This document shows positions 22,793 to 60,200 of a stretch of DNA of 64,000 bases, in pieces (within the stretch, counting starts at the first letter, position 1; each line of letters begins with the position of its first letter). The DNA is from Phytomonas francai (Eukaryota > Euglenozoa > Kinetoplastea > Trypanosomatida > Trypanosomatidae). The position numbers and the translations under genes were made by a program. Where the stretch lies: assembly GCA_001766655.1 (NCBI GenBank), contig MJCC01000003.1, positions 714,212 through 778,211 on the forward strand, written 5' to 3'. The notes beneath the pieces were generated by a model. The model was not told where the DNA came from and made no database searches. It saw nothing but the letters and a program-made list of their open reading frames with translations.

Positions 22793-23800
22793 TTATTTTT
22801 TCAATGCACACGAAAATTCAGAAGATTTTGAAGAATTCGTTTCACTGGGAAAAATGCTATGATGGTCTATTGGGCATTCAGCTTTATGTTCTGTTGCCCA
22901 TTTTCTGGAGCACTCCAAATGGAAAAAATGCCCGCACGGGAACTGCACAAGAACTGCGTTTTCCGTAAATTGCTCCAAACAAATGCTGCAAACTGAACAG
23001 CCCATGTTACCATGCCATAGGCTTTTCGGTAGCTTTTCGAACTCGGCCAGGCTAAGAGTAGTCAATACATTATTATCCAATGACAAAAGGACTTCGTAGT
23101 CTTCAGGATTAATTTCTCTGTACAGAAGTGAGGTGACATCCTGTACAGCGACTTTTGGAGAAATGTCTTTTAATACTGGGTTATCCTTTATAAATGGATG
23201 ATGCGTATGAACTTTTCCTGATGCATAACATACACTGCACAGTTTGTAGTTGGGACAAAAGCTACACACATATCTAGAATTTTCACAATCAGAATGACAA
23301 GCACTGCATAAAATTTGTGAAACAGAGCACTTATCCAATTTTTTATGACAGTGGAAACATGTAACATGCTCCTCGCGTAAGGCTCTTGACCTCAACTCAG
23401 CACAGTGCCAGTGAAATTGTTCATTGCAAAATGAACATCCACTCCTATACAAAAGACGTTCTCGGCACAGACAACACGAGGAATCGTCCTTTATTCTTCT
23501 AGATGATAGCAATTCCATAATCTCAGCTTCACAAATTCCATCCTGCCACACTAATGGGTTGCGGTCCTCCAACTTCCAATAATTGATAAGAATGAACAAA
23601 ACATGTATGCAAGGTTGAACACCGTGGCATGAACACACATGCTTTCTGTTGATTGAAACTGTAAATTTGCCTTTTGTCCCATCGACAAGACTAAATTTTG
23701 TCGGTTCATGCTCTTTGACTAATTTAATATGCCTTTTAGAAAGGCTCGTAATCAGTTTTTGTACTCTAAGAGGGCAACTTTCATTCCATCCTGAGTTCAT
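22793..23800 (-). CDS. ZSWIM2/MEX-like E3 ubiquitin ligase (SWIM-RING-ZZ-RING)
   Basis: 335 residues from the ATG at 23800. Four zinc modules in the order known from ZSWIM2 (MEX), a self-ubiquitinating E3 ligase: a SWIM finger C56-x-C58 ... C64-x-H66; a first RING at about 109-151 (CCLCRERLLYRSGCSFC ... CFHC); a ZZ finger at about 165-201 (CSACHSDCENSRYVCSFC ... CSVCYASGKVHTHHPF); and a RING-H2 at 271-312 (CSICLEQF ... PCGHFFHLECSRKW ... CPID). The final RING ligand position is Asp rather than Cys (CPID), as in Rbx1. The product is shorter than animal ZSWIM2. Substrates are unknown. Codon use is AT-rich, unlike genes further from the strand-switch region. Confidence 0.88.
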   Translation of the reverse strand: MNSGWNESCPLRVQKLITSLSKRHIKLVKEHEPTKFSLVDGTKGKFTVSINRKHVCSCHGVQPCIHVLFILINYWKLEDRNPLVWQDGICEAEIMELLSSRRIKDDSSCCLCRERLLYRSGCSFCNEQFHWHCAELRSRALREEHVTCFHCHKKLDKCSVSQILCSACHSDCENSRYVCSFCPNYKLCSVCYASGKVHTHHPFIKDNPVLKDISPKVAVQDVTSLLYREINPEDYEVLLSLDNNVLTTLSLAEFEKLPKSLWHGNMGCSVCSICLEQFTENAVLVQFPCGHFFHLECSRKWATEHKAECPIDHHSIFPSETNSSKSSEFSCALKK

Positions 23801-23952
23801 TTCACTAAGAGTCTGTGATGGTTAAAATAATAAATAATAATAATATAGAATAATTTTAAAAAGATTTTAAAAAATATTTTTTAGACTCCGTCGACTGAAA
23901 TTAATATCAATATTATCCCATATTCACAAATAATAGTATTTTTTTTCAATTA

Positions 23953-24435
23953 TTAATTGAAAGCTTGCTGCTTAGCAATTGCTTTCTGTAATGCTATAGT
24001 GACGCCCTGATTTACCAAACGGCGCGCATAGCCGATGTACAACTCAGTTTCAGTATTCTCTGAAGTTTCTTTTTTAGGTTTAGACACTTTGACTTCCTGT
24101 GATTGTATCTCCCTTGATTCATGAGGCTTTGTTTTTTTTCTGCGCATTTTTATTTTTTCACGCTCAAATTCGCGGCCCTTCTTTTCTAGCTGTTTTCTAA
24201 ACCCCCCTTTTACACCACCTCTACATCGGACTAATGCATAAAATTTTGAATCGTGTAACGAGCTACCAAGGGGATAAAAAGGGGCACCACCTGGGCTACG
24301 TCCTAGAAGAAAAAGACTTTGAGGGGAAATTCCTAAAATGGCTGCTATTTTTTCCTGAGCTTCACTAGACTGGCAAGATTCCAGTTTCAAGGAAACATCT
24401 TTTTCCACTGGCAAAATTCTGCAGGTGATTTCCAT
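23953..24435 (-). CDS. SDE2-like ubiquitin-fold splicing/genome-stability factor
   Basis: 160 residues, the first gene of the leftward cluster. Residues 1-74 look like a ubiquitin-type fold ending in GG; directly after comes KGGF and a basic helix (RCRGGVKGGFRKQLEKKG, residues 70-87, then REFEREKIKMRRKK). This is the hallmark of Sde2/C1orf55: a ubiquitin-like domain cleaved at GG before KGG, releasing a C-terminal fragment that works in splicing (fission yeast) and DNA replication stress (human). Here a Val sits between GG (73-74) and KGG (76-78). The C-terminal 60 residues are charged and end in a helix (LYIGYARRLVNQGVTIALQKAIAKQQ). Shorter than fungal or animal SDE2. Assigned on this motif plus order. 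Confidence 0.72.
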   Translation of the reverse strand: MEITCRILPVEKDVSLKLESCQSSEAQEKIAAILGISPQSLFLLGRSPGGAPFYPLGSSLHDSKFYALVRCRGGVKGGFRKQLEKKGREFEREKIKMRRKKTKPHESREIQSQEVKVSKPKKETSENTETELYIGYARRLVNQGVTIALQKAIAKQQAFN

Positions 24436-25816
24436 CTCTTTGAATGCAATAACTATTCCTTTTCAGCCCTAGAATAAGGATATGAAGTATAAAATATAAA
24501 GGGTATATATATATATATATGATTAAATGTAGTCTTTAATATATGATTATCATTAAAAAGCTAATGCGTAAATAATTTTTCTATGGTGTATTTTTTTTAA
24601 TGTGTGACATATTCAATAATTAATTTAAATACGACACTAAAAATTAATATTATTATTATTAGTACTAATAATATTTGATTAGTTTATTATTTTCACAAAT
24701 TTCATTTATTTAATTTTTTATTTAATATTTAATTAAAGAAAATTCTGAAGCAGCATATGAATTATTTTGTATATTATGCATATTATAGATATGGTAACCC
24801 AATATCATAATGCAGGTCACTTTAACAAAAATAAATAAAAATCATCGGAAAAGGTGTTTGATTTTTTTTTGCATGTGCTATGTAGCTCCTTCTACATAAA
24901 AAATAACACCAAGTCCAACTAAAAAAAATTACAAAAACGAAAGCTTAATTTTTTTTCAATGCAACTCAACATTTCATGCATGTGGGATTTTTTTTTGCCA
25001 AATGCAAGGAAGTATCTATGACATTTTTAAGCCAGTATTCAAAAGATTCAAACATTTCCCATGTATGTATCAGGCTTTTATCTCTAGTGGGCATATTAAT
25101 TATACGATATTCATTTTTTTATCAGAATTTTCAGTATCTCATTGATCGTATGTCGCGCATTCAATACATACTACAGAGGTCTTAAACGTTTCTTATTATT
25201 ATTATTATTATAGGTGCCCCAGAAGACGCACTATTCGTGACGTGGCCACGGTTCCACAACCTAAGCCTTCAAAGCAAAAGATTGCGAGAGCTGAGCATAC
25301 CTTCTCATCTAAATTGATGCCACTAAATTCTTTTACTCTGATAGAATAGTCAGTTTCGGTGGTATGCTTTTAAAAAATGTTCTCTTAAGGCACAGTTGAT
25401 AAACATACACACAGCAACAGACATGTTTTATGCCACAAGCGACAAAGAATTTGACGTAATTTGCTAAAGCTGAAAACACGTGGGGGAGGTGAAAATAATA
25501 GTAAACTCAAGTGAGGACTCGAAGCAAATTTATTTGGTGGACACTTTAGCCAGGGCTTTAGAAAATCAATCATCAAGATGATTGAACCTGAAAAATGTCT
25601 CAGGTTGAGAAGTGAACAACTCATGAAAGAATAGTTAAACGAATCTCAGAAAATTGTAAAATAATAAATGAAAAAAAAAATAGATTCAAAAATTAAACAG
25701 GGCTCCGTTGAACCCGCATTCGCTCGATCGGATAATACTCTTAGATATCAAGGACCTTCTTCCTCCAAAAAATTATTTCACGGCGCTATCCGGTGGCAAC
25801 AAAAACCGCACCAGTT

Positions 25817-25831
25817 GGGGGAGGGGGGGGG
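25817..25831 (+). promoter_or_regulatory. G-tract (5 G, A, 9 G) inside the divergent region
   Basis: Fifteen bases of GGGGG-A-GGGGGGGGG on the + strand, about 670 bases before the first rightward gene. Runs of G have been described at trypanosome transcription start regions; this one points along the rightward unit. Confidence 0.5.
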
Positions 25832-26449
25832 CCAGGATAACGTTTATGTTTGGGCGTGATTTCCGACGCTTTTTTCTTTTTGAAGAATACCTCCTCTGCA
25901 TGAATAATCACTTTTTTTCTTTTTCGTTACCAGTTGGGTCGAAGCTGAGCAACGGTAGTTGACATACGTAAATGCAATTCTTTCTGCAACGCTTTATCCA
26001 GCTGGGTGGGGGATAGAAAAAGTTCAAATGAAATGGAGGTACAGAGCAGCACCATTAATAGCCAGATACCCCCCAAGCCTTTCTAGGACTCTAGCCCGTC
26101 TAGGCGGTGAGTGTTTTCGATTTGGTATTGGAATATGCTATAATTTGAGGCAGCTCAATGATTTAAGAATGAAAAGTTTAAAATGAGTCTATTGCTATTG
26201 TTGTTTATGTAAAAGGAAATGGCTAAAAAAAGTTCATATGGAATGTAAAAAAAAAAATCCCCCCTCCTGCCCACACACGCCGTTGATATTACTTTTTCCT
26301 TTTATGACCAATGAGAAACTCGTAAAAGGAGGGAAAATACTGCGGTCTTTTTTTAATGACCATTAGTGTGATTGTACTCACAATTTTTGGGCGATTTCTC
26401 CTGAACTTGTCAATTTTTTTATGAATTAATTCTCTCGTCTTGTGCCTTC

Positions 26450-37573: not shown

Positions 37574-40500
37574 ATGAACGGGGTAGACGAGCTTAATTTT
37601 CTCCTTGGCATAGGACCCCCACGTCCAAATCTTCCTTTAACCATTAGAAAATCCTCCTACACGTCTGTTCGAGACCTCGGCAAGGGCACGTACGGACAGG
37701 CTATTTTAGTATTCAACAAGATTCGTAACCAGTACTACGTCGTCAAGCACATTAACATGTCGAATATGAATTCGAAGCAACGTAAAGATGCCCACAAAGA
37801 GATATCAATCCTGCAACAGTTAGACCACCCGAACATTGTGCGCTACGTTGAGTACTTTGAAGAATTTCCTCATCTTTACATCGTAATGGAGTACGCTGAC
37901 GGTGGTGATCTCGGAACGCATTTGAAACGGATTAAGAGCAACACCAAGTACCATTTAGATTCTCAGCCTGATGAGGACCCAAACACTCAGCATCAGTGTA
38001 ACGGGCTGTTAACCGAACCACAAGCCATCAGCCTCTTTGTTCAGGTTACAATAGCCCTGAAACATATGCACGACCGCCGCTTGTTGCACCGTGATATCAA
38101 GTCGCAAAACATATTTCTAACCCAGAACCACGTTGTGAAGCTTGGAGACTTTGGTATTTCGACTGTGCTCAAGGATACCGTGGCGATGGCGAGTACCATG
38201 TGTGGCACACCCTGTTACTTTTCACCTGAACTTTGCCTTGGAAAGCCGTACAACAATAAAAGTGACGTGTGGGCTCTTGGTGTACTTTTGTACGAGATGT
38301 GTGCAAACCGCCTACCTTTCGAATCCTCGACTATGAAGTCCCTTATGAATGAAATTCTGAACAACGAACCCCAACGGATTCCCCAGTGCTTCTCAGATGA
38401 GTTGTGGGAGTTGATTCGGTGGATGCTGAATAAAGATCTGAAAAAGCGCCCAGATACACAGCAAGTACTTATGTCATCGATTGTGATGCGGCACATGCCA
38501 AATATCATTCAAAAGCTGAAGTCTGTGGAGAATGCCGAGAATTACTATGAACCTGTGCCTGGAGCGGAGATAGCGAAGCAACCATCAAAAGAGGATAAGA
38601 TTAGCAATAATGATGCACTCCCTCCCATTGATGGGAAAACTCCGATTAATCTTGGGGATGATAAGGTTAGTAGAATAACTCCTTTGCCTAAAAAGGTTGA
38701 CGATTCACCTCTTAGCAATCGAGATCAACAGAATTTAAATAGGCGACAATCAACAGGAATGAAGGAGGAGACAAAGATCATGGATAGACCCGATGGGGTC
38801 CCCAATACTAAGAAGGAGCAAGGTGTACACGGTGGTCAAGCACCGCACAATGTATACAACGCTGGATTCTTTCCTCAACAACAGCAAAACAATATTAAGA
38901 ATAAAGCTGAGGGGGTTAGGGGCAAGCCTTACCAGCCCATTTCTCAAGAGTTGCCCGCACAGACACCAGTGTCTCCAATGCAAGGCAGGGAATTTGTGGG
39001 AAAAGAGCCTAATGTGATTGGGGATCTCAGTGACCTCACGCCCGGGCAGCGTGCTGCACAAGAGGTTCAGATCATGGAACGACAAAAGCAGCAGAATTTA
39101 GAAAAGATGATGATGCGACAACATGGTGCTCAAAAGGCAGATAAGCCAACCGAATTTCCGCGTGAAATGCATCCAACTTCACTGCAGACAGGTTCGAACG
39201 ACCGTCTTTCTATTAACGCTCTTATTGAGGCTTACGACTTGGAGAAGAAAAAGATGTCCAACCTTCGGCAGAAGGAGCGCTTACTGAATCAGAAGCAGTC
39301 CCCGGTAGCCCCGTTGAATCACCACCTCGTCGATAATGCGCACCAGCAGATGGTGCACGGCTACAGGGCTCCTGAGAATGCCCTCGGTGCGAAGGGCCCG
39401 GCGAGGCAGGTTTCGACCGCGGCACGACTGCCTCCTATGGGGGGGGGACCCAGCAATCCAATTTTACCCGCAAAAGATCCTAACGCCCGTCCACTACCTC
39501 AAACCGGATGCGGAAGGGCAAGCAGTCACTCCAAGGACCCTACTACTGCTGAACCGGCTTTACGTTTCCTGACACCTCAATATACTCCTTCCAAGATGGT
39601 TCCTTTGTATAGAGCACCAATACTCCCTCCTTTGCCATCGCTTGGTGAGGGTGGTACAGAGGAGGTGAAAGGTGATCGAAATATAGAGACAACGCAGGTA
39701 AGACCCCCCTTGTCTCAGGAGAAAGAAAACTGCCCCAGAAGTGAGCTAAATGACGTGGTTCTTGAGATGACATTGTTGCTATCTCGCTTTACAATGAGTA
39801 TGCGGGGTGTAGAAGACAAGAATGGGGGAAATGACCCAGAAATGGCCGCTGCTTTGGACTCGAAGCGGGAGGCGGAGGCTAAATTAGCCATAGGAAATAT
39901 TGACGATACCGCCATGGCAACCTCAAAATCTGGTAAAGACTCTTGTATGAGCGGTAGAGACTTTCCCTCCCTACAAACAACTCACACCTTTGTAAAGACA
40001 TGGAATAAGGAACAGCTTGAAGTGCAAACAGTTAGCGAAGAGTTTACAGACACACTGGGCACGCGACTAGATGTTGGAAGGCTCCAAGCACAGCCAGAGC
40101 AAGGAGACCTTTCTACAGAAATATTAGAGAAGAATTTTCAACAAACTGAAGAACGAAACTCTGCCCAGACTTCGTCTGACCCTGAAGGCAAGGCAGTTCT
40201 CTCTGAGGGATCTACGCAGATTTCGGGCAGCTACTCATTTGGCGCTAAATCTGAGGTGGTGGCCAGTGCTGTCGATCGTGCTCAAAATGATTCACGCCAA
40301 TGTGAGTCCAATGCAGATTCAAAACAAACCAACTTCTGCATTAATAGGAGCGATCTGGGCGCTAATGTGCAGTCAAAGTCTTTCACTTCCGAACCTGTGG
40401 CGGACCGAACTCGGAATTTAAGCAACGGGAGACGATTAACCTCCTCCTCGTTGAGGAGGAATTCGAATGTAGACTACCCGGTGGTGAAAGGTCCTTCCAA

Positions 40501-41260
40501 AGGTCTTTCGAGAGGCGACCTCAATGCTTTGTGGAGGGACTCTGCGCTGAAGTACTTTGATGGAAGTTGCATCTGTGGTGGCACACGGGTGCGGGGCTTT
40601 TTCTCGAGCATTTATGGCTCGTTTGTGTGTTCGTGTGATGCTTGCTGCCGTGTGAGCGGCTCGGGCTATGGCGTCGAATGGCTCCATTTGCCCAAAGTAG
40701 GCGATATCGAAGATGTGCTAAACTTAATGTACCCGGACACTGAAGACGCAATGAGTGCTGAAAATGGAGACGAGGTGAATATTCCTGTGAACTGTTTCGC
40801 CGGTGCAGTTCCGGGTGATGACAACGGAGAAAAGAGGCTCATAAAACTCAGTCCCGAAATTCTACTCACCCCATCCGAGTACCATTTTACGATTCTCGTA
40901 GACGTTGCTGATGATGATTACTATGAAGGAATCAGAAGACCCGAAGTTGATGCCACTAATTATCCTGTTTCTAAACTTGATGAACCAATGTCTGGCGAGG
41001 ACAAGGGCTCGGACCGCGGCAGATGCGACATGGCTGATCCTTCAACCGACACTTTGCAGTGTCTACAGCGACCACAGGCCTGTCGGAAGGAGGAGGAGTA
41101 TTTCAGGGTTCACTTTTGTCCGACATGTGGGTGCGTGTTAGGGATGGAGCACGACGGAATCGAAGGTCTGTTGCTATCCAAGCTGTTGCTGGTGCCAGCC
41201 AGCGCGAGTGTTCTTCATCAATTTGAGCAAATACTGGACGAGCTGGAGGGTAAATCGTAG
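37574..41260 (+). CDS. NEK-type protein kinase with C-terminal GFA/CENP-V-like zinc fold
   Basis: 1228 residues from the ATG at 37574. The kinase domain is at about 28-310: GKGTYG (36-41), the VVK lysine K58, HRDIKSQN (172-179), DFG (192-194), GTPCYFSPE in the activation segment; subfamily NEK by overall pattern. Residues 330-980 are disordered and Gln/Pro/Ser-rich with a short coiled coil (YDLEKKKMSNLRQKERLL). The C-terminus, about 995-1228, carries a Mss4/GFA-type zinc fold: C999-x-C1001; C1019-x-C1021-x2-C1024; C1182-x2-C1185, the same spacing pattern as in GFA and CENP-V proteins, which have a structural four-Cys site (CxC plus CxxC) and a second three-Cys site (CxCxxC). NEKs in trypanosomatids act in flagellum and basal-body biology; the added fold may bind a partner or thiol adduct. 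Its activity is unknown. Confidence 0.88.
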   Translation: MNGVDELNFLLGIGPPRPNLPLTIRKSSYTSVRDLGKGTYGQAILVFNKIRNQYYVVKHINMSNMNSKQRKDAHKEISILQQLDHPNIVRYVEYFEEFPHLYIVMEYADGGDLGTHLKRIKSNTKYHLDSQPDEDPNTQHQCNGLLTEPQAISLFVQVTIALKHMHDRRLLHRDIKSQNIFLTQNHVVKLGDFGISTVLKDTVAMASTMCGTPCYFSPELCLGKPYNNKSDVWALGVLLYEMCANRLPFESSTMKSLMNEILNNEPQRIPQCFSDELWELIRWMLNKDLKKRPDTQQVLMSSIVMRHMPNIIQKLKSVENAENYYEPVPGAEIAKQPSKEDKISNNDALPPIDGKTPINLGDDKVSRITPLPKKVDDSPLSNRDQQNLNRRQSTGMKEETKIMDRPDGVPNTKKEQGVHGGQAPHNVYNAGFFPQQQQNNIKNKAEGVRGKPYQPISQELPAQTPVSPMQGREFVGKEPNVIGDLSDLTPGQRAAQEVQIMERQKQQNLEKMMMRQHGAQKADKPTEFPREMHPTSLQTGSNDRLSINALIEAYDLEKKKMSNLRQKERLLNQKQSPVAPLNHHLVDNAHQQMVHGYRAPENALGAKGPARQVSTAARLPPMGGGPSNPILPAKDPNARPLPQTGCGRASSHSKDPTTAEPALRFLTPQYTPSKMVPLYRAPILPPLPSLGEGGTEEVKGDRNIETTQVRPPLSQEKENCPRSELNDVVLEMTLLLSRFTMSMRGVEDKNGGNDPEMAAALDSKREAEAKLAIGNIDDTAMATSKSGKDSCMSGRDFPSLQTTHTFVKTWNKEQLEVQTVSEEFTDTLGTRLDVGRLQAQPEQGDLSTEILEKNFQQTEERNSAQTSSDPEGKAVLSEGSTQISGSYSFGAKSEVVASAVDRAQNDSRQCESNADSKQTNFCINRSDLGANVQSKSFTSEPVADRTRNLSNGRRLTSSSLRRNSNVDYPVVKGPSKGLSRGDLNALWRDSALKYFDGSCICGGTRVRGFFSSIYGSFVCSCDACCRVSGSGYGVEWLHLPKVGDIEDVLNLMYPDTEDAMSAENGDEVNIPVNCFAGAVPGDDNGEKRLIKLSPEILLTPSEYHFTILVDVADDDYYEGIRRPEVDATNYPVSKLDEPMSGEDKGSDRGRCDMADPSTDTLQCLQRPQACRKEEEYFRVHFCPTCGCVLGMEHDGIEGLLLSKLLLVPASASVLHQFEQILDELEGKS

Positions 41261-43477: not shown

Positions 43478-46400
43478 ATGTCTCAATACATTCAATTGCT
43501 GGGGACAGATACACCCAATGGCTTTGGTGGATGTTGCTATTACGGGACTTTGGACCATCCTGGCTTGCAAATTGGCTCCTCATTGCCTTGCCCACCATCT
43601 CTGGGCTTTTCCGCTCCAGCTACCTACCAAAACCTTCTACAACTTCCCCTGGAAACTGCGATGGCTCGCTTGGGGGTAAGTTCTGAACTAGATTCCAAGG
43701 GCTGCAGCTCCTCGACTGTTGAAGAGGGGTTTCCTATTAACAAAAATACCTTGAGTAAAAAGTCGCCCATGAGCGTCAGCGGTAGTGAGGGGTATTTGTT
43801 TTTCAATTGTCCTGAGGGAACGCAGCGTTTTAGCTCGGAGGCAAACATTAAACTAACTAAAATTAAGGGCTTCTTTTTTACAAGATGGGGAGGCAAGCGC
43901 CAAAAGCCAGCGATAACACAGCCCACTTCGCTTCATCACGCAGAGGATAACAAGGATACTGAAGCCAATGACAACCAGTGCGGATGCAAAGCCAACGACA
44001 AGAAAGCGAACACCAGCAGTGAAGCGCATGACGGTGCATGGGATACGCTGGCAGCCGCCGCTGCGTCGGCGGGTACGGCTGTGATGGGTCTGCCAGGGTT
44101 ACTTTTCACGATCAACGATGCTGGTGTGCAGCATGTCAATATATTCGGCCCAAGTAGTGCGCAGCTCGCTCTTCAGGCGTGGCTCTCCAAGATGGATGGC
44201 GATCACACTCCTGGTACATCTGAGAAGGAAACACTTGTGCGGCACATGGCTGGTCTGGAGCAATTCCTAGTGGCTCTTCGTGTTAGTTACTTTTCATACC
44301 GCCCTATGGTTTTCCGCATGCTAACCCCTACGTTCCCACCTTTTTTGTCGGTTCTTAAGAAGGCAATAAAAAAGATCTCCTGTGGAACAGAACAGGACGT
44401 TTCCACTAGTCCAGTCGCCCAATGCCTTTCCTTGTCCCCATCGACGCAAAAGGCGGAAAAACCCACAGCGGTACCGAGGAACGAAACCTTTCTTTTGCCA
44501 CCGCCCCCTCCGGCTTTAACTCCCCTTCCAGTACATATGGAGCTAGGAGGGATAAGGATAAGTTTTGATGGAAAAGTACCATTTATTGTGGCTGTACTCC
44601 CTCTAAGTTCCCAGAGCGTTCTGATCGCATTCCGTGTATCGGGTGAGGTCGTACGAAATCACATCAACGATGCGCACATACGCAATGATGAAGAGGAGCC
44701 ACGAGAGGGGGCCTCCGCGGTGGACGCTGGTGATGTCGAAAATACATTTTCGGAATTTCTACCGGATTTGTCAGAACTGGTGCTAGGCTATGCCATTGTG
44801 AGTGCGCCACAGCCTGCGTTCGATGCAAGTCGGGCTCGCGCTCTTGGCGTGCTGCCAGGCCCTAAGTACGCACAGCTTAAACAGGGCATCGCCGTGTACG
44901 CGGATACCTGTGCGGGTGAAGGAGGTAGGAAAATTTCACGACGAACAAGGCGTGCTGGCGAGGGCACGGCTTCCCTAGGAGGGATTTCTGCAGAGAAGCA
45001 CCATCGCAGTTCTCATACCGGGTGTGATTCGGGTGCGCGTGATGGAGGCTTAATCTTCCCCAACGCGGAAGCCGCCTCTGCTCCGCCTGCGCAGCGTGAA
45101 AATCCTGAGCTGGAGCCGAAGCACCAAACTCGACTGGTCGAGCCATATGAGGTTACGTTTCCCACTATGGCCAGTCAGCACCTTTACGTATCGTTGGTGT
45201 TGGATGGCAATAGAGCCACGGATGTTCGTGCTGCCCTAGAGCGGCTGCTGGGAGCTTGTGATAGGAAAAAGAAGGAGACATTGGAAGGGTTAAGTAGTGC
45301 ACCTGGGCAAACGCAGGGCCTTTCTTCCTGCGACGATCTGGAGGAACGCACGGTTAGCGAGGGGGACTGCGGTGAGCTGATTCGAGTCTTAACGCAGTCG
45401 TTTCCAAACTTAGCATACACCTCTTTGTCTGATTCTTCGGATCCCAATACTTGTGGAAGTGAGCAGAAGCGCAAGTTGCGAACGGTAGTCATCCGTCACG
45501 TTGTACACGTTCAGCCGCTTTCCTACTTCAAGCTATTCGATGCCGGATATGGTAATTGTGAGGTTCATAAGAGAGGCTTCAAGACCCCTCCGGAGGCTCA
45601 TTTTCATCCGTTACCTCTCCACGAGAGCGTCTACCAGAGGTATCTCAGTACCATTTTTGGAACGGTTCACCATTCGGTGAAGCATTCGTGCTCCCCTATG
45701 TTCTCCTTCACGATGGCAGACCTCCTTGAGACGGATATTTCGGCCCCTGTAGACCCCCCCTCCGGTCTCTCGCGCAACGCCTTTGAGTCCACCAATGCTC
45801 AACCGGAGAAGGAATGCACCGGTGGCAACGCACGCCGTCCCTCGCGCCCGGACCTTTTCACCAAACATCTCTTCACCGCCTTTGTCCAGAAACACTTCAC
45901 GGCCTTCCCGACCGCGCTGGTGCATCGGTATCACCTCCACGCGATTGCGCCAGGAGGCTTTCCCGTCCCCGCCCACGCGAGGGGGGGGGCCGGGGAGGTT
46001 GGGAAGGTTGGGGAAGCCGCGTCCGGGCCCTTCTGGCCGTACTCGTTGAAGCTCCACTGCGTGCCGCCGCACCACGCGTGCCCCGCCCTGGCCTCGCCCT
46101 TGGCGATCCACACCGACGGCGGGGGGAGGGGGGGGACGCAGTGCATTCGCTACCCCGACCCCCCCACCGCGCAGGCCCTCCTCTCCGCGGGCTTCCGCGC
46201 GATCCTTCGCGCTTTGCCGGAGGAGAGGGCGGCGGAAAAGGGGGAGGGCGGCGGGGCGCTGGGCTTCCTCGGGACTGGCTCCGCGGTGCCGAGCAAGTAC
46301 CGCAACGTCAGCGGGGCCTACCTCGAGCTGCACCTGCCGGCGTGCTGTTTCGGCCCGGCGCGGTCTTTGGCCCCGGGCCATCCGGCGGGGCCCGACCTCG

Positions 46401-48226
46401 GGAACGAAGAGCGGCAAGGGGGGGATCTGGCCGCCCTCGCGGGGACTTCGGGCTCCGATGCTTTGGACTCCGACCCACCACGCCAGAGACGCGGGGTTGT
46501 GATCTTGGATTTTGGAGAGGGTAGTCTGGGGCAGCTATCGCAGCTTTTATCGCGTGGAAGCCGTCGCTGTAGAGTTGATTCGGATAAATACGAGGACGAC
46601 GACGTGGAACTTTCTCGTTTTGTGTTGGATGTGGAAGTTGTTTTCATATCCCACGGCCACGCCGATCATCACCTTGGCTTGCTTTCTTTTCTATCACTTC
46701 GACATTTCTACCTTGAGTATCGGAGGGTGACGAGATGGAAACAACAGCCACAGAGGGACGACCATGAGTTCGACCCTTTCGTAGAACATGAGGCCGAAAA
46801 ACTTCTAATCGTGCTTCCAGAAGAGGTGTATGAGTTCATGAACTTGTCTTGGTTCACTCTTTGGCCGTACAATACATGGATCGAGCAAGAGTGTGAGTTT
46901 GACATAATCCCAAGCATGGGTGGCGCGGTGACTTACGGTGGCTTCGCGGGTTCCGGGGTTACGCCGGAAAATGCTGCTGTTGGTTTAGGTCATGGGTCTG
47001 TTCCCACCATGCAGGGTGGCGTTGGCGTGGGTGAGGTTGCCTTCACCTTTGATGGGGCGGCGAGAGAGGAAAAATCGCATAGGCAGAGAAGTGAATCCCA
47101 AGCACCGCTGGTTGCGGCGAGCGGTGCCATGGATGAGGCGATGACGTCAGAGGTCACGTGCTTACCGCGTCTAAGGGCGCGGTTAATGCGATGGAATGAT
47201 TCGATTGCTTCGCATTTCGGACGACCGAGGGTGCAAGGGGAGGGACTCTGGGATGCGCGGGTGCTCAAGGTAGACCACCCGGCCAACGCCCATGCGCTCT
47301 TGCTACGCTTTCCATTTTCGTCGTCCTTTTCTTCCGAATGTGGTGGGGGTGGCGGGCTGGGCGTCAATGCATCGCAGGTTTTACTTTTCTCGGGGGACAC
47401 GCGGCCCTGCCCGTTTCTTGTTGCCCAATGCCGTTTCTTCTGCGCGCATCAAACCCATTCGGGAGGCATCGTCAATCGAGAGAAAATCTCCAGCGGCAAT
47501 CTCCTCGACGCGCGCTACGCCCCGGCGCCGCATGCTCGGCCAGATGCCTCGGCCCGTGCATTGGGAGAAGGTTACACGGTGCAGGAGGGTCCGGGCCCTT
47601 TTATTTGCCTTCACGAGGCTACCTTTGGCCCCGGCTTTGAGGCAGAGGCGATCAGCAAGAAGCACTCTACGCTCCCGGAGGCGTTGGATATCGGCGCGCA
47701 GACCTGGAGCGAGTTCGTCGTGCTGAATCACTTCTCGCAGCGCTACCCGAAGCTTCCGGGACAGATGGAAGGACATCTAAAGGAAAGCGTCGTGGATGTC
47801 CGGCTCAAGCGAAGCCGGACTGGGAGCTGCACCGACCCGTCGGCGAACTCTCTGATCTCGTCTGCATCACTTGAGCAGCTTCCCAAAGAATTCAAAAGGG
47901 GTGATGATGGTTATGGAAGCGACCTCACCAACGTGGAGAATTCGGTTCAATCTAAAGTTCCATCATGCCCATCGCCGAAGATGTACGCGTCTGGAGAGGA
48001 GTACGACCAGGCCGCGCAGGAAGTTATCGGCAGAAATCGATTCGCACAAGGGGCACGGCAACGGCCGGCTTCGAACGTGTGTTTTGCGTTTGACTTGATG
48101 CGGCTCTCATTTTCGGATCTCTGCTCCGGATCGGTGGCGTCACGTCTGCCCATTTTTGTCCGTCTTCTGGAGGAGTATGAAACCTGGGAAGTGGGCACAA
48201 CCCAAAGATTGCGGGATAGCGCATAG
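43478..48226 (+). CDS. Long-form tRNase Z (ELAC2-like)
   Basis: 1582 residues from the ATG at 43478, nearly twice human ELAC2 (about 830). It trims tRNA 3' ends in the nucleus and/or mitochondria. The N-terminal inactive half is visible (YLFFNCPEGTQRF, GFFFTRWGG, GLPGLLFTINDAGV, then HLYVSLVLDG near residue 570). The catalytic half starts at about residue 928 (GFLGTGSAVPSKYRNVSG) and keeps the metal site: HGHADH (H1059, H1061, D1063, H1064), VDHPANAH with H1267, SGD with D1307, the LHEAT box (H1379) and the NHFSQRY motif (H1418). Extra length comes from low-complexity insertions, among them a very GC-rich block at about 45950-46480. The frame is continuous in spite of G-runs. Confidence 0.93.
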   Translation: MSQYIQLLGTDTPNGFGGCCYYGTLDHPGLQIGSSLPCPPSLGFSAPATYQNLLQLPLETAMARLGVSSELDSKGCSSSTVEEGFPINKNTLSKKSPMSVSGSEGYLFFNCPEGTQRFSSEANIKLTKIKGFFFTRWGGKRQKPAITQPTSLHHAEDNKDTEANDNQCGCKANDKKANTSSEAHDGAWDTLAAAAASAGTAVMGLPGLLFTINDAGVQHVNIFGPSSAQLALQAWLSKMDGDHTPGTSEKETLVRHMAGLEQFLVALRVSYFSYRPMVFRMLTPTFPPFLSVLKKAIKKISCGTEQDVSTSPVAQCLSLSPSTQKAEKPTAVPRNETFLLPPPPPALTPLPVHMELGGIRISFDGKVPFIVAVLPLSSQSVLIAFRVSGEVVRNHINDAHIRNDEEEPREGASAVDAGDVENTFSEFLPDLSELVLGYAIVSAPQPAFDASRARALGVLPGPKYAQLKQGIAVYADTCAGEGGRKISRRTRRAGEGTASLGGISAEKHHRSSHTGCDSGARDGGLIFPNAEAASAPPAQRENPELEPKHQTRLVEPYEVTFPTMASQHLYVSLVLDGNRATDVRAALERLLGACDRKKKETLEGLSSAPGQTQGLSSCDDLEERTVSEGDCGELIRVLTQSFPNLAYTSLSDSSDPNTCGSEQKRKLRTVVIRHVVHVQPLSYFKLFDAGYGNCEVHKRGFKTPPEAHFHPLPLHESVYQRYLSTIFGTVHHSVKHSCSPMFSFTMADLLETDISAPVDPPSGLSRNAFESTNAQPEKECTGGNARRPSRPDLFTKHLFTAFVQKHFTAFPTALVHRYHLHAIAPGGFPVPAHARGGAGEVGKVGEAASGPFWPYSLKLHCVPPHHACPALASPLAIHTDGGGRGGTQCIRYPDPPTAQALLSAGFRAILRALPEERAAEKGEGGGALGFLGTGSAVPSKYRNVSGAYLELHLPACCFGPARSLAPGHPAGPDLGNEERQGGDLAALAGTSGSDALDSDPPRQRRGVVILDFGEGSLGQLSQLLSRGSRRCRVDSDKYEDDDVELSRFVLDVEVVFISHGHADHHLGLLSFLSLRHFYLEYRRVTRWKQQPQRDDHEFDPFVEHEAEKLLIVLPEEVYEFMNLSWFTLWPYNTWIEQECEFDIIPSMGGAVTYGGFAGSGVTPENAAVGLGHGSVPTMQGGVGVGEVAFTFDGAAREEKSHRQRSESQAPLVAASGAMDEAMTSEVTCLPRLRARLMRWNDSIASHFGRPRVQGEGLWDARVLKVDHPANAHALLLRFPFSSSFSSECGGGGGLGVNASQVLLFSGDTRPCPFLVAQCRFFCAHQTHSGGIVNREKISSGNLLDARYAPAPHARPDASARALGEGYTVQEGPGPFICLHEATFGPGFEAEAISKKHSTLPEALDIGAQTWSEFVVLNHFSQRYPKLPGQMEGHLKESVVDVRLKRSRTGSCTDPSANSLISSASLEQLPKEFKRGDDGYGSDLTNVENSVQSKVPSCPSPKMYASGEEYDQAAQEVIGRNRFAQGARQRPASNVCFAFDLMRLSFSDLCSGSVASRLPIFVRLLEEYETWEVGTTQRLRDSA

Positions 48227-48991: not shown

Positions 48992-51459
48992 ATGATTTGC
49001 CTCCGACATTACTTCAGAACGACCCTGAGAACTCCCACGCATGCGCGCATCCGCATTTCGTTGATCGCCCCCCCACTCATCGATGGAGGGTGACGTGCTC
49101 CTGGCATATTCGCGGCGCCGTCGCCGCGCTTTGGGCAGGGGCGTCCCGCGGCCGCGGCGAGGCCGTCCCTCGGCCTTTCAGCCCGCTCTGCGCGCCCTCG
49201 CGCGGCCTTCACCTCGCGCCCACCTCGCGGCGGCTCGCGGCCGCGTCCTTCGCCGAGGGCCTCGAAACCGACGACGGCGCGGCCGCCCTCGCGTCGACGG
49301 CGGCCGCGGAGCCCCNNNNNNNNNNNNNNNNNNNNNNNNNNNNNNNNNNNNNNNNNNNNNNNNNNNNNNNNNNNNNNNNNNNNNNNNNNNNNNNNNNNNN
49401 NNNNNNNNNNNNNNNNNNNNNNNNNNNNNNNNNNNNNNNNNNNNNNNNNNNNNNNNNNNNNNNNNNNNNNNNNNNNNNNNCCCCCCGCCGAGGACGACGA
49501 GGAGGTCGAGGAGATGGAAACGCGGCGGCTTTTGGCGATCCTCGCGGGGGGCCGAAAGGCGGGGAGCCGAAATAACCGTGCGACCAAGCGGCGCTTGTCC
49601 TCGTCCTCGTCCTCGGGGGGGGGGCGAGGGGGAAGGCCGCCGCCGCGCCCCCCCCGACGACGGCGCCGCCCCCCGCGAAAGCCTCGCCGGAGCCCGCCGC
49701 GAAGCGGTCGCCGCCGACGCCGCGGGCTGCGAATGGGGAGCAAAGGCGGCGGGAGGTGGCCGCGCTCGCGCGGCTCCCTAAAAACACATCGCAATCGCAT
49801 CTCGCCCGTAAGCGACTTTTCATCCAACAACGACACCAGCAGCGCGAGTTGTTGAAGCGAATCCAGTTCGCCAAGGCCCCGCCGGCCGTCAGCGAAGGGA
49901 GGCCCGCCCCGCGGCCTCGTTCTGGCGAGGTCGCGGTGGGGCCCGATGCGGCCTCGAAAACAAAACGCAAAAAGGGGGCATCGCCCGCGTCGAGCGGCGG
50001 CACCCCCGCTGGAGTCTGCAGCCCGCTCCAATTCCCGGACTATCGCGAGCAGGTGCTTTTGATTTTTCAGCAATTAGGCGAGATCAACCTCGCCCTCGGG
50101 GAGAAGTACAAGACGCAGTCCTACCAAGTTGCGGGGGAGCGGCTCAAAAAGGAGGATACGATCTTCAAGCTTCTGCCCCCGCACTTGAAGCCGCTCCCGG
50201 AGAACGCGATGGAGATCGGCGACGAGGCGGAGGTGAAGGAGCTGCTCGCGAAGCGCACCTACGCGCTTGACCCATCGCAGCCGATTCCCGGAGTGGGGGA
50301 TAAGTTGCGCCGGAAGATTGTCGAGATCTTGACCACCGGCGACCTCAAGGAGCTCCACGTGTTGGAGGCGAAGCCCGTTATTCGCGCGATTCGGCAGTTA
50401 ACCCAAGTGCACGGCTTCGGCCCGCGCACGGCCATATCCATTTATAAAGACTACGGCATCAGCACGGTCGAGGAGCTCAAAGCATACGCTGAGGAGCATG
50501 GCCTGATGAGGGAATCGGATGCTGGTGAGGCCGAGCGAGGTAAAAAGGGCAAGAGCAAGGATAAGTTTCACCTCACTGACGCGCAGCGATTCGGCCTGAA
50601 GTACTACAAGGATATCCAGCAACGTATCCCGTACAACGAGTGCCGCCTGCACGAGGCCTTTCTGAAGCTCCGACTCCGCAAGCACCTCGGGCGTGAGTAC
50701 GAGTTAACGGTATGCGGAAGCTACCGCCGAAAGGTGCCGACCTCAGGCGATATCGACGTCCTCATCACGCGGCGGGACGGGCTCAAGAACGGCTCGGACC
50801 CGCTGGCCTCCTCGCAGAACGCGCTGGCGACCTTCACCGCGGCGCTGGAGGCGGAGCGCTATATTGAGGCTACTCTAGCCCACGGCCCGACCAAATTTAT
50901 GGGCGTCTGCCGTCTTCGCAGCCTGAAGAATCCCGGCGCGCCGGAAGCGGGGCCTGCGGAGACGCGTCGCTTCCACGCGCGGCGCATCGACATCCGCTTC
51001 GTGGACGCCGCCAGCTACCCTGCCGCGATGCTCTACTTCACCGGGAGTAAAAACTTCAACGTGATCATGCGCGCCGAGGCGATCAAGAAGAACTTCATCC
51101 TGAACGAGTATGGGTTGTTCCGGAACAACTCCAGCAGCGCCGCGGAGACGGGCAGGCTGCACGAGATGATCGCGCAGCTCTCCAAGGCCCAGTACTACAC
51201 CAGCAAAAGTGGCGCCTTGAATTACTCCCTCAGCAACCCCGCCACCGCCGACGACGATGGCGGGGGTGGCGCGGCCGCGGCGGGGGATAGGCGGGAACGA
51301 CGGGGGGGTGCGAAGGCCGCGGCGGGCAAGATGCAGCCCGCGGAGCTGCTGGAGGTGCTCCAGAAGGTTGAAGCCCTGCGGGTGAGGGTGCAGTCCGAAA
51401 AGGACATCTTCGACGCGATTGGGATGAGTTACCTCGAACCACAGAATCGGAACGTTTAA
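48992..51459 (+). CDS. DNA polymerase beta-PAK (interrupted by assembly gap and probable frameshift)
   Basis: Mitochondrial polymerase X/beta with a Pro-Ala-Lys-rich N-terminus. The core is open from about 49620 to the stop at 51459: HhH motif LTQVHGFGPRTAISIY, catalytic CGSYRRKVPTSGDIDVLI, third Asp in RRIDIRF, and FTGSKNFNVIM. The lyase/HhH1 region has PGVGDKLRRKIVEIL. The upstream part is broken: 165 N at 49316-49480; after the gap the reading frame (PPAEDDEEVEEMETRRLL ... SSSSSS) ends in a 10-G run (49615-49624) beyond which the PAK frame is shifted, as if one base were missing. Start uncertain: the ATG at 48992 opens a typical mitochondrial presequence (MICLRHYFRTTLRTPTHA) but hits TGA at about 49090, past a 7-C run (49068-49074); the ATG at 48829 is open in the frame that runs into the gap. 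Adjacent to polymerase beta, as in other trypanosomatids. Confidence 0.88.
49316..49480. other. Assembly gap (165 N)
   Basis: Unknown bases inside the very GC-rich 5' part of pol beta-PAK. The frame differs before and after, so the true length is not a simple multiple of the shown N count. Confidence 1.
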
Positions 51460-51929: not shown

Positions 51930-53060
51930 ATGTTCCGCCGTTTTGCCTGCCTTCGCGACCACCGCGAGAATATTATTCGTATTTTTCGTGAGATGGCCGA
52001 TTTGAACAACGCGTTAGGGGAGAAGTACAAGGTCTCCAGCTACAGCCGCGCCATCGAGAGCCTCAAGACCAATCTTGATAAGCCGCTAGACACCCCTACC
52101 GATTTGAAGGCGTTCTCCGGATTCGGCGCGAAGCTACTGAAGAAGGCCGAGGAGATCATGGCGACCGGCAAGCTCGAGGAGCTGGAGAGCAAAACGAAGC
52201 CGAAGCTCAAGGCGATTCAGGAGCTGACGCAGGTCCACGGCTTCGGCCCGCGCGCGGCGGCGGCGCTCTTCGACCGCGAGGGCATCTTCACCGTCGACGA
52301 GCTCCTCGCGAAGGCGGACAGCATCCCCTCGCTGACGGACCAGCAGCGCGTCGGCATCAAGTACTTCTACGACATCAACGAGAAAATTCCGATGCAGGAG
52401 AGCGTGCAGCACGAGAACTTCCTCGCGGAGAAGTGCGCCGAGGTGCTCGGGAGCGGGTACGAGGTGCAGATCTGCGGGAGCTACCGCCGCCGCCACCCCT
52501 TCAGCGGCGACGTCGACGCGATCCTCTCGCGCACGCGCGAGGCCCCGCTGCTGAGCGAGCCCGTCGCCGCCACCGGCGTCCTTTCGCAGTTCGTGGACTA
52601 CCTCACCGGGCTGCGGTACCTCGAGGCGACGATGGCGCAGGGGCCGCTGAAGTACATGGGGATGGGCCGTCTGCCGCCGCGCGTCGTCCGCGATAAGGCC
52701 GGGAACGAGAGCCAGAAGATGTACAAGGCGCGCCGTGTCGACATCCGGCTGATCGAGACCAAGAGCGTGCCGACGGCCCTGCTCACCTTCACCGGCAGCA
52801 AGAACTTCAACGTCATCATGCGGCAGGCCGCGATCAGCAAGGGCTACCTGCTCAACGAGTACGGCCTCTTTAAGCTCGGGACCCCTGAGGAGGCAAAGGC
52901 GCTCTACGAGAAGCTCGGCGTGCGGGGGAAGAACGCCGGTGAGGAGCTCGGCGTCCCGAAGGACGAACTGGAGGACAAGCGCGTGCCGGTCACGTGCGAG
53001 CAGGACGTGTTCGACGTGCTCGGGATGCCGTACGCCAAACCGGAGAATCGTGATCCTTAA
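51930..53060 (+). CDS. DNA polymerase beta (mitochondrial family X)
   Basis: 376 residues from the ATG at 51930. Gap-filling polymerase/dRP-lyase of base-excision repair, which in trypanosomatids acts in the kinetoplast and sits near the kDNA disk. Seen: lyase region with Lys at the position of mammalian K72 (GFGAKLLKKAEEIMATGK, 64-81); HhH LTQVHGFGPRAAAALF (99-114); catalytic CGSYRRRHPFSGDVDAIL (182-199) with D194 and D196; third Asp D271 (RRVDIRLIETKS); and FTGSKNFNVIMRQAA (287-301). The N-terminus MFRRFACLRDHRENIIRIFR could double as a mitochondrial signal. Full length, no break. Very GC-rich codons. The 470 bp between it and pol beta-PAK and the shared domain order point to an old duplication. 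Confidence 0.97.
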   Translation: MFRRFACLRDHRENIIRIFREMADLNNALGEKYKVSSYSRAIESLKTNLDKPLDTPTDLKAFSGFGAKLLKKAEEIMATGKLEELESKTKPKLKAIQELTQVHGFGPRAAAALFDREGIFTVDELLAKADSIPSLTDQQRVGIKYFYDINEKIPMQESVQHENFLAEKCAEVLGSGYEVQICGSYRRRHPFSGDVDAILSRTREAPLLSEPVAATGVLSQFVDYLTGLRYLEATMAQGPLKYMGMGRLPPRVVRDKAGNESQKMYKARRVDIRLIETKSVPTALLTFTGSKNFNVIMRQAAISKGYLLNEYGLFKLGTPEEAKALYEKLGVRGKNAGEELGVPKDELEDKRVPVTCEQDVFDVLGMPYAKPENRDP

Positions 53061-53964: not shown

Positions 53965-55107
53965 ATGTTCGAGGTTCGGTCGTTCGGGGGCGGTAGGGGT
54001 CGTGGTCTGGTGGCGACGGCGCCTATACCAGCTCAGTCAATCCTAGCCGTTGTGCTCCCCGACATCTCGGTGTTGTACTCCGCATTCGCGGGCTCCTGTT
54101 GTGCGTGTTGCTATACGGCAAAGTCCTCCCGCGATGGGGCGCAGGAGGGGTGGTTTGTATGCCCGACATGTGATCAGTTCGTGCTCTGCCCGGCGTGCTG
54201 CGCGATGCTGCCCACCCACGAGACCACCGCCGCCGCCGACAGGGGGGATTTCCTTCGATCCATCTCAAAGCGCGCCGGCGAGTTATACGACAGCAAGAGA
54301 AGGTTCGCCAGGGTGTCCGTGGAGGCGCATCGCTTGAGCTGCGTGTGGTATAACGAACTTCCCGCGGCGGTTCGGGCCCCCGGGCAGGATACCGACATGC
54401 TACGCTTTTGCCTCGGCTACGGTGCACGCGTCGGGCAGGTCGGCGACACCGCGCTCGCGACGTCGGTCGCCGTGCTCGAGACGAACGCGGAAACGCAGGC
54501 GCCATCGTCCGTGCGTTTTTGCAATGACTTCGCGCACAAAATCGTGCGAACGTTCTCGTCTCCGCCTTGCGCGATTGCCGCGGGGAGCGATGCCGGTGAG
54601 AACGGCACCGAAACGTGCGCGCCGTCCCCGCGCTACGCGGTGGCGGTGGGTCACCTGCGTGAGGTTCTCCTCCGAGTCCAGTGCAATAGCCTAGGCTTCC
54701 CTTTCACACCGGAGGAGACGGTGGGCTGGTCGCTCCAGGAGACCCTCTGCATGTTGAACCACAGCTGCTACCCTAGCCTCTCCATTATTTGCGGTGAGGA
54801 TTCTACAGAAAGGGAGGGCATTTTAACGTATATGATCGGGGAAGATCGCGCGAGGGAGATTCAGACGAATACGGATCAGCCCCAAGAGGGCATTATCGAG
54901 GCATTCCTTCCGCTGCTTCGCGGCTGCATGGCTCTCAAGGCGTTACGGGATATTGCCGTAGGAGAGGAAATGACTTTGTCCTATGTGGACCTTGAGCAGC
55001 TGGGGGACTCCGTCGAGGAGCGATCTTTAGAGTTATCGGAACGGTATCGTTTTCACTGTGTTTGCCCGCGTTGTGAGCAGCAGCGGAAATTTGTTGAGAA
55101 TGGGTAA
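53965..55107 (+). CDS. SMYD-type SET-domain protein
   Basis: 380 residues from the ATG at 53965. Split SET domain: an N-terminal SET part (GRGLVATAPIPAQSIL, 13-28), a Cys-rich insert at about 44-80 in the place of the SMYD MYND finger (CCACCYTAK ... FVCPTCDQFVLCPACC), then the SET core with LNHSCYPSLSI, ALRDIAVGEEMTLSYVD, and a post-SET Cys cluster (RFHCVCPRCEQQ). Such proteins methylate lysines or act as scaffolds. The Cys insert is not a standard MYND (zinc-ligand spacing differs), which is worth alignment. It is the last gene of the rightward cluster. GC-rich codons. Confidence 0.88.
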   Translation: MFEVRSFGGGRGRGLVATAPIPAQSILAVVLPDISVLYSAFAGSCCACCYTAKSSRDGAQEGWFVCPTCDQFVLCPACCAMLPTHETTAAADRGDFLRSISKRAGELYDSKRRFARVSVEAHRLSCVWYNELPAAVRAPGQDTDMLRFCLGYGARVGQVGDTALATSVAVLETNAETQAPSSVRFCNDFAHKIVRTFSSPPCAIAAGSDAGENGTETCAPSPRYAVAVGHLREVLLRVQCNSLGFPFTPEETVGWSLQETLCMLNHSCYPSLSIICGEDSTEREGILTYMIGEDRAREIQTNTDQPQEGIIEAFLPLLRGCMALKALRDIAVGEEMTLSYVDLEQLGDSVEERSLELSERYRFHCVCPRCEQQRKFVENG

Positions 55108-57206: not shown

Positions 57207-60200
57207 CTAGGAGAGAAAGTGCGCGGCCTCGGGGTCGGGCTCCGGGCGTGCCCGCTCCCCCCCCGCCCCCAGCCATTCCGCCGCGTCGACCACGAGGCTG
57301 GAGGCCAGGGACGAGCTCAGCGGCGAGGGGCTGGGCCGCTGGCGGACGCGGACCTGCACGTGGAGCCCGCTCACCGCGACCGCGTCCGCGAGCGGCACCG
57401 GCGAGATGTGGCCGCGCATCTGCTTGTGGTGGTAGTTGTGCATCCTATAGCAGCGGCGACCGCGCCACGCGAGGGGCGTCTCGGAAGAGGTCGGGCCAAG
57501 GCTCGGGATCGGGGGCCTGGACTCAAATGGGAAGTAGCGGTTCTCCATGCGCTTGTTGACCTGGATGGAGGTGTTCCCGGCGTCGTGGTGGCACGCGCCG
57601 GGCCGCGCGCTCGCGGGGCTGGAGGGCTCTGTCATCCCCGTTGGGAGCGTCGCGGTGCGCGAGCAGGCAAGTGTCGACGGAGACCGCGAGGCAGAGGTCT
57701 GGTAATCGGATGGAGTCTCAGCCGCCCTCGGGGGGGCGCCGACGCTGGTGCACGTTTCGTGTAGTTCGGACTTTAGGCTGCCTTCCGCAATTTCACAAAC
57801 AGAGGGTGCCAATCTGCTAAACAAGCTTGGTGTCTGAAGCGTGCGCCTACCATGGCTTGTCCTTAAATTGGTAGTTTCATCACTCAGACAAGCACCCCCG
57901 GTGTCCATTCGGACTGATGTGGCGAGGCCCTCAGCAGGACAGCGATTCTGGGAGTATTGTTGGCAGGCATTCACCACTGCTGCCCCTGTTTGTGGAGGGT
58001 GTCGTGTTGTGGAGTCTGGGGTGAACTCGCGCTGGTATTTAATTTTCGACATCGGCGACGTTACCATGTGCGATGCGTCGTTGTCCTCGGTTCCACACAG
58101 GATAGGATCCTCAGGAGGCTTAACCCCCCCTCCATCGGTGCCCCTCGCTCCTGAGGTGGTTTCTGTGGCCGGGATTTCCGACAAAGGGTCCTCTTCGGCA
58201 GTATTCGGGGACACCAGTCTAGGACAGGAGTGATGGGACATCTGCAATGGTTCCGTCAACTCATCCTGTGGCGACTGCTCCCGCGCCTTATGGTTGCCTT
58301 CGCATTGGCCGTTTGTTATCGGCTTTCTGCCATTTTTATTCTTTTTTTTGTTTGCATGCTGTTTACGCCTTAGTCGATTTTTCACGAATTTGGGTATAAC
58401 ACCGAGGAAAAATCGCTCGCGATTCAGGCGGAAGCTCCATATACAATATCGACCAACCTGCAGAAGACCGGTGGGCGTCTCTGTGGTTCTCAGCCAACCC
58501 GAATTGTCGCGCTCCTCGAAGAGGCGATTGTCTTTAACCCACTTACACCAGCTGAGCAGAAGGACGTCGAGACTCACACACAGCAGGCGTGCCTCCATTC
58601 CTGGGTCTATCGATGCCACCTCAACCTGAGCGCAGGTACCCTTTTCGGCGCGTTTGACAGTTGTTGTCGGGCTACATGCTAACCCCAGACGTTCGAATTG
58701 CATCCTGAGCCGCACATGCTCGTAGTGTTCCCACATAAAGGTCTGGCAGTTGTATACGATCAGGTCCCCATCACGGAAGTCGCCCGCGGCGTAGCTCTTG
58801 ACGTGTTTATCGTGCTCGCGTTCGTGCCGCTGCCGCAGCGCCAACGGGCTGGTGGGGTCGGGCAGGGCCTGCAGAACCATTCGCTTCAGGCGATGATCCG
58901 CACTAGGGCCCACAGCGTGCGCGCTTGGATCGGACACACTAAAAACAGGAATCAACCCATGAGCCGTGTGCTCCGCCAGAACCGCGAGATCGATGTCGAA
59001 TTGCTCCAGCGTATCCCATTCGTCTGGCTTTTCACGGGCCGCTCGAGAGAGCCGTATGGAGCCACAGTAGGTTAAATTTGTCGCATCCGATGGCTCCATG
59101 TACTCCCCAACGAACATGGGCACGGCAGCCAGGGAGAGGTAGTACAGCAGCGCCGACAGCGCGTCTTGGCGAATTCGAACTAGTAAAAAGCGCCCTCGAA
59201 TGGTTTCCATTATACCACAGTTATACAATGCCACCCAATGCGGCTTCGCCCCCTTACACCCTGTGGGGTGAGGGGTGCTCTCATGCTCCCTATGGGCGAT
59301 GGATCCTCGCCTGTGTAATGCCATCTCACACTTGGCCAATGCATCCTCCAGAACGTAGCTAGGCAGCTTCCCCGAACCTGGCGGTGGCAAAACAAGGTTT
59401 TCCGCCGCTCCTGACTCGTAGAGGGACTCCAGCACGTACGGCGCACACGGTTCCAGACGTGAGGAAAAGTCCCGCGTAAAGCTAGGGCGTGAACGCTGCG
59501 TGCAGTAATTGTTTGGGTCCCGTTTTTCCTCCTTTTGCACTTCTTGATCGATCTCCTCGGTTTCCGCCCTACTTTCACGCCGGCGGGAGTCAGGCAGCGG
59601 AGTGTTCTCGTGCACACCGCCGCGATCATTCGCATCAGACCGAGCGCGATCGACCTCGGCGCCGGTGCGCGGCCTCTCCGGCCGCCCCTCCTGTTCCCCC
59701 CAACACATGTTGAGAAAGTTCCGAAAGTTGTTCTCGCGATCAATGGTTTCGAGATGTTGGCGGAGGCGGAGGTCGTGGTGCTCAACCTCGGCGACCGCGG
59801 CGCGCGCGAGGAAGTAGGTCTCGCGCACCAGCTGCAGACTCGGGATGTTCGACATCGTGAAGAGCGACCACATCGGGCGCACGAGCGACTCCGACAGCCC
59901 CGCCCGCAGGCAAACCCCGCGGTACGTGCAGAGCGACGCCAGCGCGACGCGGTTGAGGATCTTCTCCCCTACGGCGCCCTCGATAAAGCGGCATAGGCGG
60001 AGCACCGGCGGCGGCGACGGCAGCCCCTCGCGGCGGGCATCCTCGGCGGGGTCGTCGTCGGTGCCGCGCAGCCACGGCGTCCCGCGCGCGCGCGCGGGCA
60101 GCGGCCCGTGCACCCCGACCACCCGCACTCGCGTGATCGGGATGCGAAACTCGCCGCCTTCGCTCGCGGGGGAATTCACGGCGGCGGGCCGCGCCCCCCC

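Follow-up and report, generated by a model that had tools for sequence, protein, structure and literature searches.

A 64,000-nucleotide stretch of the Phytomonas francai genome (assembly GCA_001766655.1, contig MJCC01000003.1, positions 714,212 to 778,211; here called the window) carries a gene for a NEK-type protein kinase whose C terminus is joined to a putative GFA/CENP-V-type beta-tent domain. This architecture is supported by relatives that exceed the Pfam cutoff, by the conservation of seven cysteines, and by the predicted fold. We tentatively read the domain, with two predicted zincs, as a regulatory module that responds to small thiols. The parts of the gene, termed NEK-GFA below, are as follows; the zinc sites are predicted by analogy to cysteines C31/C33, C52/C54/C57, and C99/C102 of Gfa (PMC4682968).

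37574..41260, + strand: NEK-GFA kinase gene, a single uninterrupted frame of 1,228 amino acids plus stop
37658..38476, + strand: NEK-type protein kinase domain, residues 29-301 (Pfam and PDB matches, motifs)
38477..40546, + strand: long, poorly conserved linker, residues 302-991 (alignment identity)
40037..40084, + strand: short conserved linker motif, residues 822-837, of the type F-x-D-x-x-G-T-x-L-D-V (alignments)
40547..40729, + strand: GFA N-terminal half, residues 992-1052; five of the seven cysteines lie here (alignment, predicted structure)
40568..40576, + strand: first cysteine pair (Cys999, Cys1001) of the predicted structural zinc site (analogy to Gfa C31/C33)
40628..40645, + strand: predicted three-cysteine zinc site, Cys1019, Cys1021, and Cys1024 (analogy to Gfa C52/C54/C57)
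40730..41086, + strand: two expanded loops with a low predicted local distance difference test score (pLDDT) flanking one short strand, residues 1053-1171 (missing from nine bodonid-type relatives)
41087..41257, + strand: GFA C-terminal half, residues 1172-1228 (alignment, predicted structure)
41117..41128, + strand: second cysteine pair (Cys1182, Cys1185) of the predicted structural zinc site (analogy to Gfa C99/C102)

A NEK kinase with a seven-cysteine tail

The kinase is of the NEK type with intact catalytic motifs (glycine loop at residues 36-41, HRD at 172, DFG at 192, and activation segment CGTPCYFSPE at 210). PF00069 covers residues 29-301 with an E value of 4.6e-64, and a PDB sequence search with the kinase ranks NEK1 first and NEK2 second. 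The closest relative among the matches listed by a full-length protein search (the best 120 of 2,958) is P0002 from Phytomonas sp. EM1, which has 1,229 amino acids and is 62% identical from end to end. A misjoining of neighboring genes is ruled out by the one open frame, by this full-length Phytomonas relative, and by the same domain order in bodonids.

All seven cysteines of the two-zinc GFA/CENP-V pattern had been predicted to occur in order, and their positions are exact in the translated frame: CxC at 999/1001, CxCxxC at 1019/1021/1024, and CxxC at 1182/1185. Such spacing is by itself improbable by chance yet not decisive: when residues 930-1228 (299 residues) were shuffled 200,000 times, 10 of the shuffles produced the pattern under loose spacing limits. 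A chance pattern is ruled out by conservation, since 32 of the 33 proteins examined (P0001-P0032 and P0054, P0001 being the window protein) keep all seven cysteines, and we therefore regard the pattern as real. The exception, P0029, keeps CxC and CxxC with other letters at the CxCxxC position; this looks like a frame error, and the protein was dropped from the alignments. Across the full set of 124 proteins, 35 show the seven-cysteine pattern and 89, P0029 among them, do not. From residue 985 onward, 16 residues are invariant in the alignment of these 35, namely the seven cysteines and G1015, F1017, G1029, W1036, H1038, P1040, G1186, H1193, and G1198.

Profile searches place the domain in the GFA family through its relatives. 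The isolated C-terminal piece of the window protein scores 19.1 bits against Pfam GFA (PF04828), under the cutoff of 24.3, and the Bodo and Trypanosoma vivax relatives exceed it with 41.7 and 26.9 bits. The architectural part of the original prediction, a NEK joined to a GFA/CENP-V fold, is supported by the relatives' scores, the cysteines, and the predicted fold, with the window protein itself below threshold; its functional part (coupling of the NEK to a thiol or formaldehyde state, or targeting to centromere or cytoskeleton) is conjectural. The Bodo domain covers model positions 2-101 of 115, and among the beta-tent families GFA, CULT, Yippee, and Mis18 its profile search returns GFA only; the T. 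vivax match spans only positions 2-40, and Leishmania major P0016 gives no GFA profile match at an E value of ≤0.05. At an E value of ≤0.1, 20 of 32 members are matched (best E value, 1.4e-10). A precomputed PF04828 label is carried by 10 of the best 120 matches, so automatic annotation had already seen the domain in some members.

The C-terminal domain, modeled without zinc, is predicted to adopt the Mss4-like beta-tent on which the original prediction depended. In a fold search two GFA structures lead the next row by at least 2.4 Z units, and cereblon and Mis18 rows also populate the lists. A further PDB sequence search gave three matches, P. denitrificans Gfa not among them, and one of the three is an antibody chain that we take as chance.

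Conservation is uneven along the protein. Setting aside Phytomonas EM1, relatives are 48 to 71% identical to the window protein in the kinase, 12 to 19% over residues 302-985 of the linker, and 30 to 53% and 27 to 45% in the first and second GFA halves, respectively; the tail domain is therefore held more tightly than the linker. The spacing between cysteines 5 and 6 is 43 to 44 residues in all nine bodonid-type proteins and 98 to 175 residues in all 26 trypanosomatid-type proteins, a grouping taken from the kinase tree and from names where given. These loops are likely the reason why Pfam detects only the first GFA half, or nothing, in trypanosomatids. Within the linker, the motif at residues 822-837 is retained across much of the family, with a faint echo by eye in the sister NEKs P0055 and P0057, which have no GFA domain. 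Its F, D, and G columns are near-invariant in one alignment and its F is invariant in another; it is possibly a docking site.

Distribution and comparison with known kinases

Sought in other kinetoplastid NEKs, the same C terminus is present in the sampled bodonids, Leishmania, and Trypanosoma. NEK relatives among the best 120 matches come from Phytomonas, Leptomonas, Novymonas, Bodo saltans, and Neobodo designis, from Trypanosoma rangeli, T. cruzi, T. theileri, T. conorhini, T. grayi, and T. vivax, and from L. major, L. mexicana, L. donovani, and other Leishmania species, alongside unnamed proteins. A tree built from 124 kinase domains, of which 104 are different, places the 36 rows labeled as GFA (35 proteins plus the hand-labeled P0029) together on one side of a single branch (support, 100/99), and one change explains them. 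The nearest kinases without GFA are P0055 and P0057 (support, 99/94), followed by a group with Diplonema papillatum at weak support (80/39). Within the sampled proteins this fits a single gain of the GFA domain on the kinetoplastid line. P0055 and P0057, both EukProt transcripts, have the nearest kinase domains and the faintly similar short motif in the tail; unlike NEK-GFA, they show no GFA match and no seven-cysteine pattern, and by eye their tails seem to finish in a coiled coil.

For a prokaryotic donor, a genome scan with six bodonid-type GFA domains gave 17 pattern matches, none of them a relative by tblastn. Fusions were sought with the Bodo GFA region, giving 4 matches among 1,313 candidates, the query included and all labeled as kinase plus GFA, and with the window C terminus, giving 1 match among 2,492; both searches require shared five-residue words and restrict length, so that distant fusions are missed and uniqueness to kinetoplastids is not proved. 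Within the P. francai genome (17.4 Mb, 37 contigs), a family search revealed no second GFA domain, though it also missed that of the window gene. From 43 kinase matches 20 loci were made, and the 19 besides the window gene do not have the seven-cysteine pattern on the matched strand; these loci end approximately 1,500 bases past the match and could miss a far C-terminal domain. One of them (L004) has a low-complexity match on the reverse strand, taken as chance.

Searches of open-license papers on NEKs, kinomes, GFA, or CENP-V, judged mostly from the entries listed, revealed no description of a kinase-GFA fusion. The available part of the 2005 TriTryp kinome does not include GFA in its table of kinase accessory domains and, among NEKs, mentions coiled coils and PH domains as well as a B-box zinc finger in one L. 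major protein (PMC1266030); in the available part of a 2022 review of trypanosomatid kinases, neither GFA nor formaldehyde occurs (PMC7618733). NEK-GFA resembles the trypanosomatid NEKs with PH or B-box domains in being a lineage-specific NEK with an accessory domain, which in the B-box is also zinc binding, but those folds differ from GFA. Like NEK1 and NEK2, it has an N-terminal catalytic domain with its motifs and a long C-terminal tail; human NEK1 and NEK2 have coiled-coil tails (PMC1266030), whereas this one ends in a predicted zinc domain. With the GFA/CENP-V family (P. denitrificans Gfa, R. sphaeroides 3fac, P. aeruginosa PA2722 8ajq, and human CENPV) it shares the order of the seven cysteines and the predicted beta-tent, and the Bodo protein matches the Pfam profile over nearly its full length. 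Unlike those proteins, the NEK-GFA domain sits behind a kinase, has its own conserved blocks EWLHLP and MEHDGIEG, and is split by loops in trypanosomatids.

Possible roles of the C-terminal domain

In the thiol-responsive reading that we tentatively favor, cysteines 999, 1001, 1182, and 1185 would pin the beta-tent fold and cysteines 1019, 1021, and 1024 would form an open zinc site. There, glutathione or trypanothione, either free or in an adduct, may act as the low-mass thiol that binds or displaces the zinc, as proposed for bacterial Gfa, and the flexible linker could relay this change to the kinase, altering its activity or its choice of partners. In trypanosomatids the long loops would have been added later, to bind partners. 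Trypanothione enters as a ligand that we infer from general kinetoplastid biochemistry. Gfa itself has a four-cysteine and a three-cysteine zinc and binds glutathione, and its second zinc is proposed to move (PMC4682968). A bolder version, in which the site was repurposed from formaldehyde/glutathione to trypanothione and switches the NEK on or off as a single-origin, kinetoplastid-only, receptor-like redox kinase, seems unlikely to us.

Several observations weigh against this reading. On the full window protein, Pfam GFA reaches only 13.6 bits (residues 995-1035; E value, 0.072), and 12 of the 32 members give no GFA profile match even at an E value of ≤0.1. Foldseek returns no match at an E value of ≤0.001, its top row being Mis18 at 0.09, and the full-length Bodo model is of low confidence (predicted template modeling score [pTM], 0.38), with no usable arrangement of kinase and GFA. 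No data on metal content, ligands, or activity turned up for the window protein, and the blocks EWLHLP and, in the window protein, MEHDGIEG could equally be a protein-binding face. Later lysate work does not support the view that Gfa catalyzes the formation of formaldehyde-glutathione adducts (PMC4682968), and we therefore favor binding or sensing over catalysis.

Nearly as likely as thiol sensing is a role in targeting or partner binding, in which the zincs mainly hold the fold and the domain directs the kinase to a site on the cytoskeleton, flagellum, or chromatin. The beta-tents of CENP-V, Mis18, and Yippee are regarded as targeting or partner-binding modules, and both the large trypanosomatid loops and the invariant W1036, H1038, P1040, H1193, and G1198 would suit a binding face. 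The weak top row of Foldseek points in the same direction, as does the dependence of the CENP-V overexpression effect on chromatin on the three-cysteine site (PMC4682968). An unverified lead is LmxM.08.0930, a possible ortholog by gene numbering, which lights up in adhered flagella (PMC13416946); however, the identity of the Leishmania gene is unverified, and a fold that served structure alone could do without the open three-cysteine site, which 32 of 33 proteins retain. That the domain is instead a working enzyme attached to the kinase, acting on formaldehyde-thiol adducts or another thiol at a shared site or in a shared pathway, we consider improbable: the complete cysteine set and two further invariant histidines would allow it, but Gfa catalysis is disputed (PMC4682968) and among the open-license papers listed by the searches none could be recognized as dealing with GFA chemistry in kinetoplastids.

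Least probable is that the C terminus belongs to another beta-tent family (CULT/cereblon-like, Yippee/Mis18, or MsrB). The beta-tents of CULT, Yippee, and Mis18 have the four-cysteine zinc site only, without CxCxxC, and the presence of this extra site, invariant in the 35-protein alignment, together with the GFA profile makes these families unlikely. Cereblon and Mis18 rows do fill the fold searches, Mis18 tops Foldseek, and CULT domains occur in kinetoplastids (PMC4287342), but relatives exceed the GFA cutoff and the two GFA structures stand clear of every other row.

Gene neighborhood and significance

Downstream of the NEK-GFA gene, DNA polymerase beta is encoded twice in tandem, at 49756-51459 and 51930-53060, probably as one PAK type and one plain type by comparison with Trypanosoma brucei and L. 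major, where Pol beta and Pol beta-PAK are Tb927.5.2780/.2790 and LmjF.08.0890/.0900, respectively (PMC12578213). Counting gene numbers outward from these, rather than matching sequence, suggests Tb927.5.2820 and LmjF/LmxM.08.0930 as NEK-GFA orthologs. Tb927.5.2820, called an unclassified kinase, copurified with MKT1, and its RNA interference left proliferation, morphology, and ZC3H11 unaffected (PMC4803223). Of 7 haptomonads, about 86% showed LmxM.08.0930 signal in the adhered flagellum (PMC13416946); the main text of that paper does not use the word kinase, so this match may be wrong. Among Leishmania NEKs, 18 of 20 were deletable in promastigotes, and elsewhere the same paper gives 2 of 22 as not deletable (PMC7902614).

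Elsewhere in the window, we observe a divergent strand switch at 23800-26442, with the listed open reading frames mostly on the minus strand to its left and mostly on the plus strand to its right up to about 55 kb, and low GC content between them. Transcription start regions of trypanosomatids have this layout. The 1,582-amino-acid frame at 43478-48226 has only short, weak tRNase Z/metallo-beta-lactamase matches, and the usual tRNase Z is shorter. A SET-domain protein is encoded at 53965-55107, and its match, spread over residues 12-340, suggests a split domain. Several long overlapping frames occupy both strands of 57207-60996, including a minus-strand frame of 1,027 amino acids with no Pfam match at an E value of ≤0.001.

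Kinetoplastids depend on the unusual thiol trypanothione. Few receptor kinases seem to exist in trypanosomatids (PMC1266030). A kinase that has a zinc/thiol-type domain built in and is conserved in bodonids, Leishmania, and Trypanosoma is thus a direct candidate for tying phosphorylation to the redox or aldehyde state. The domain itself is compact, at about 115 residues, and the kinase also provides a lineage-specific entry point to one of the NEKs in an expanded family.
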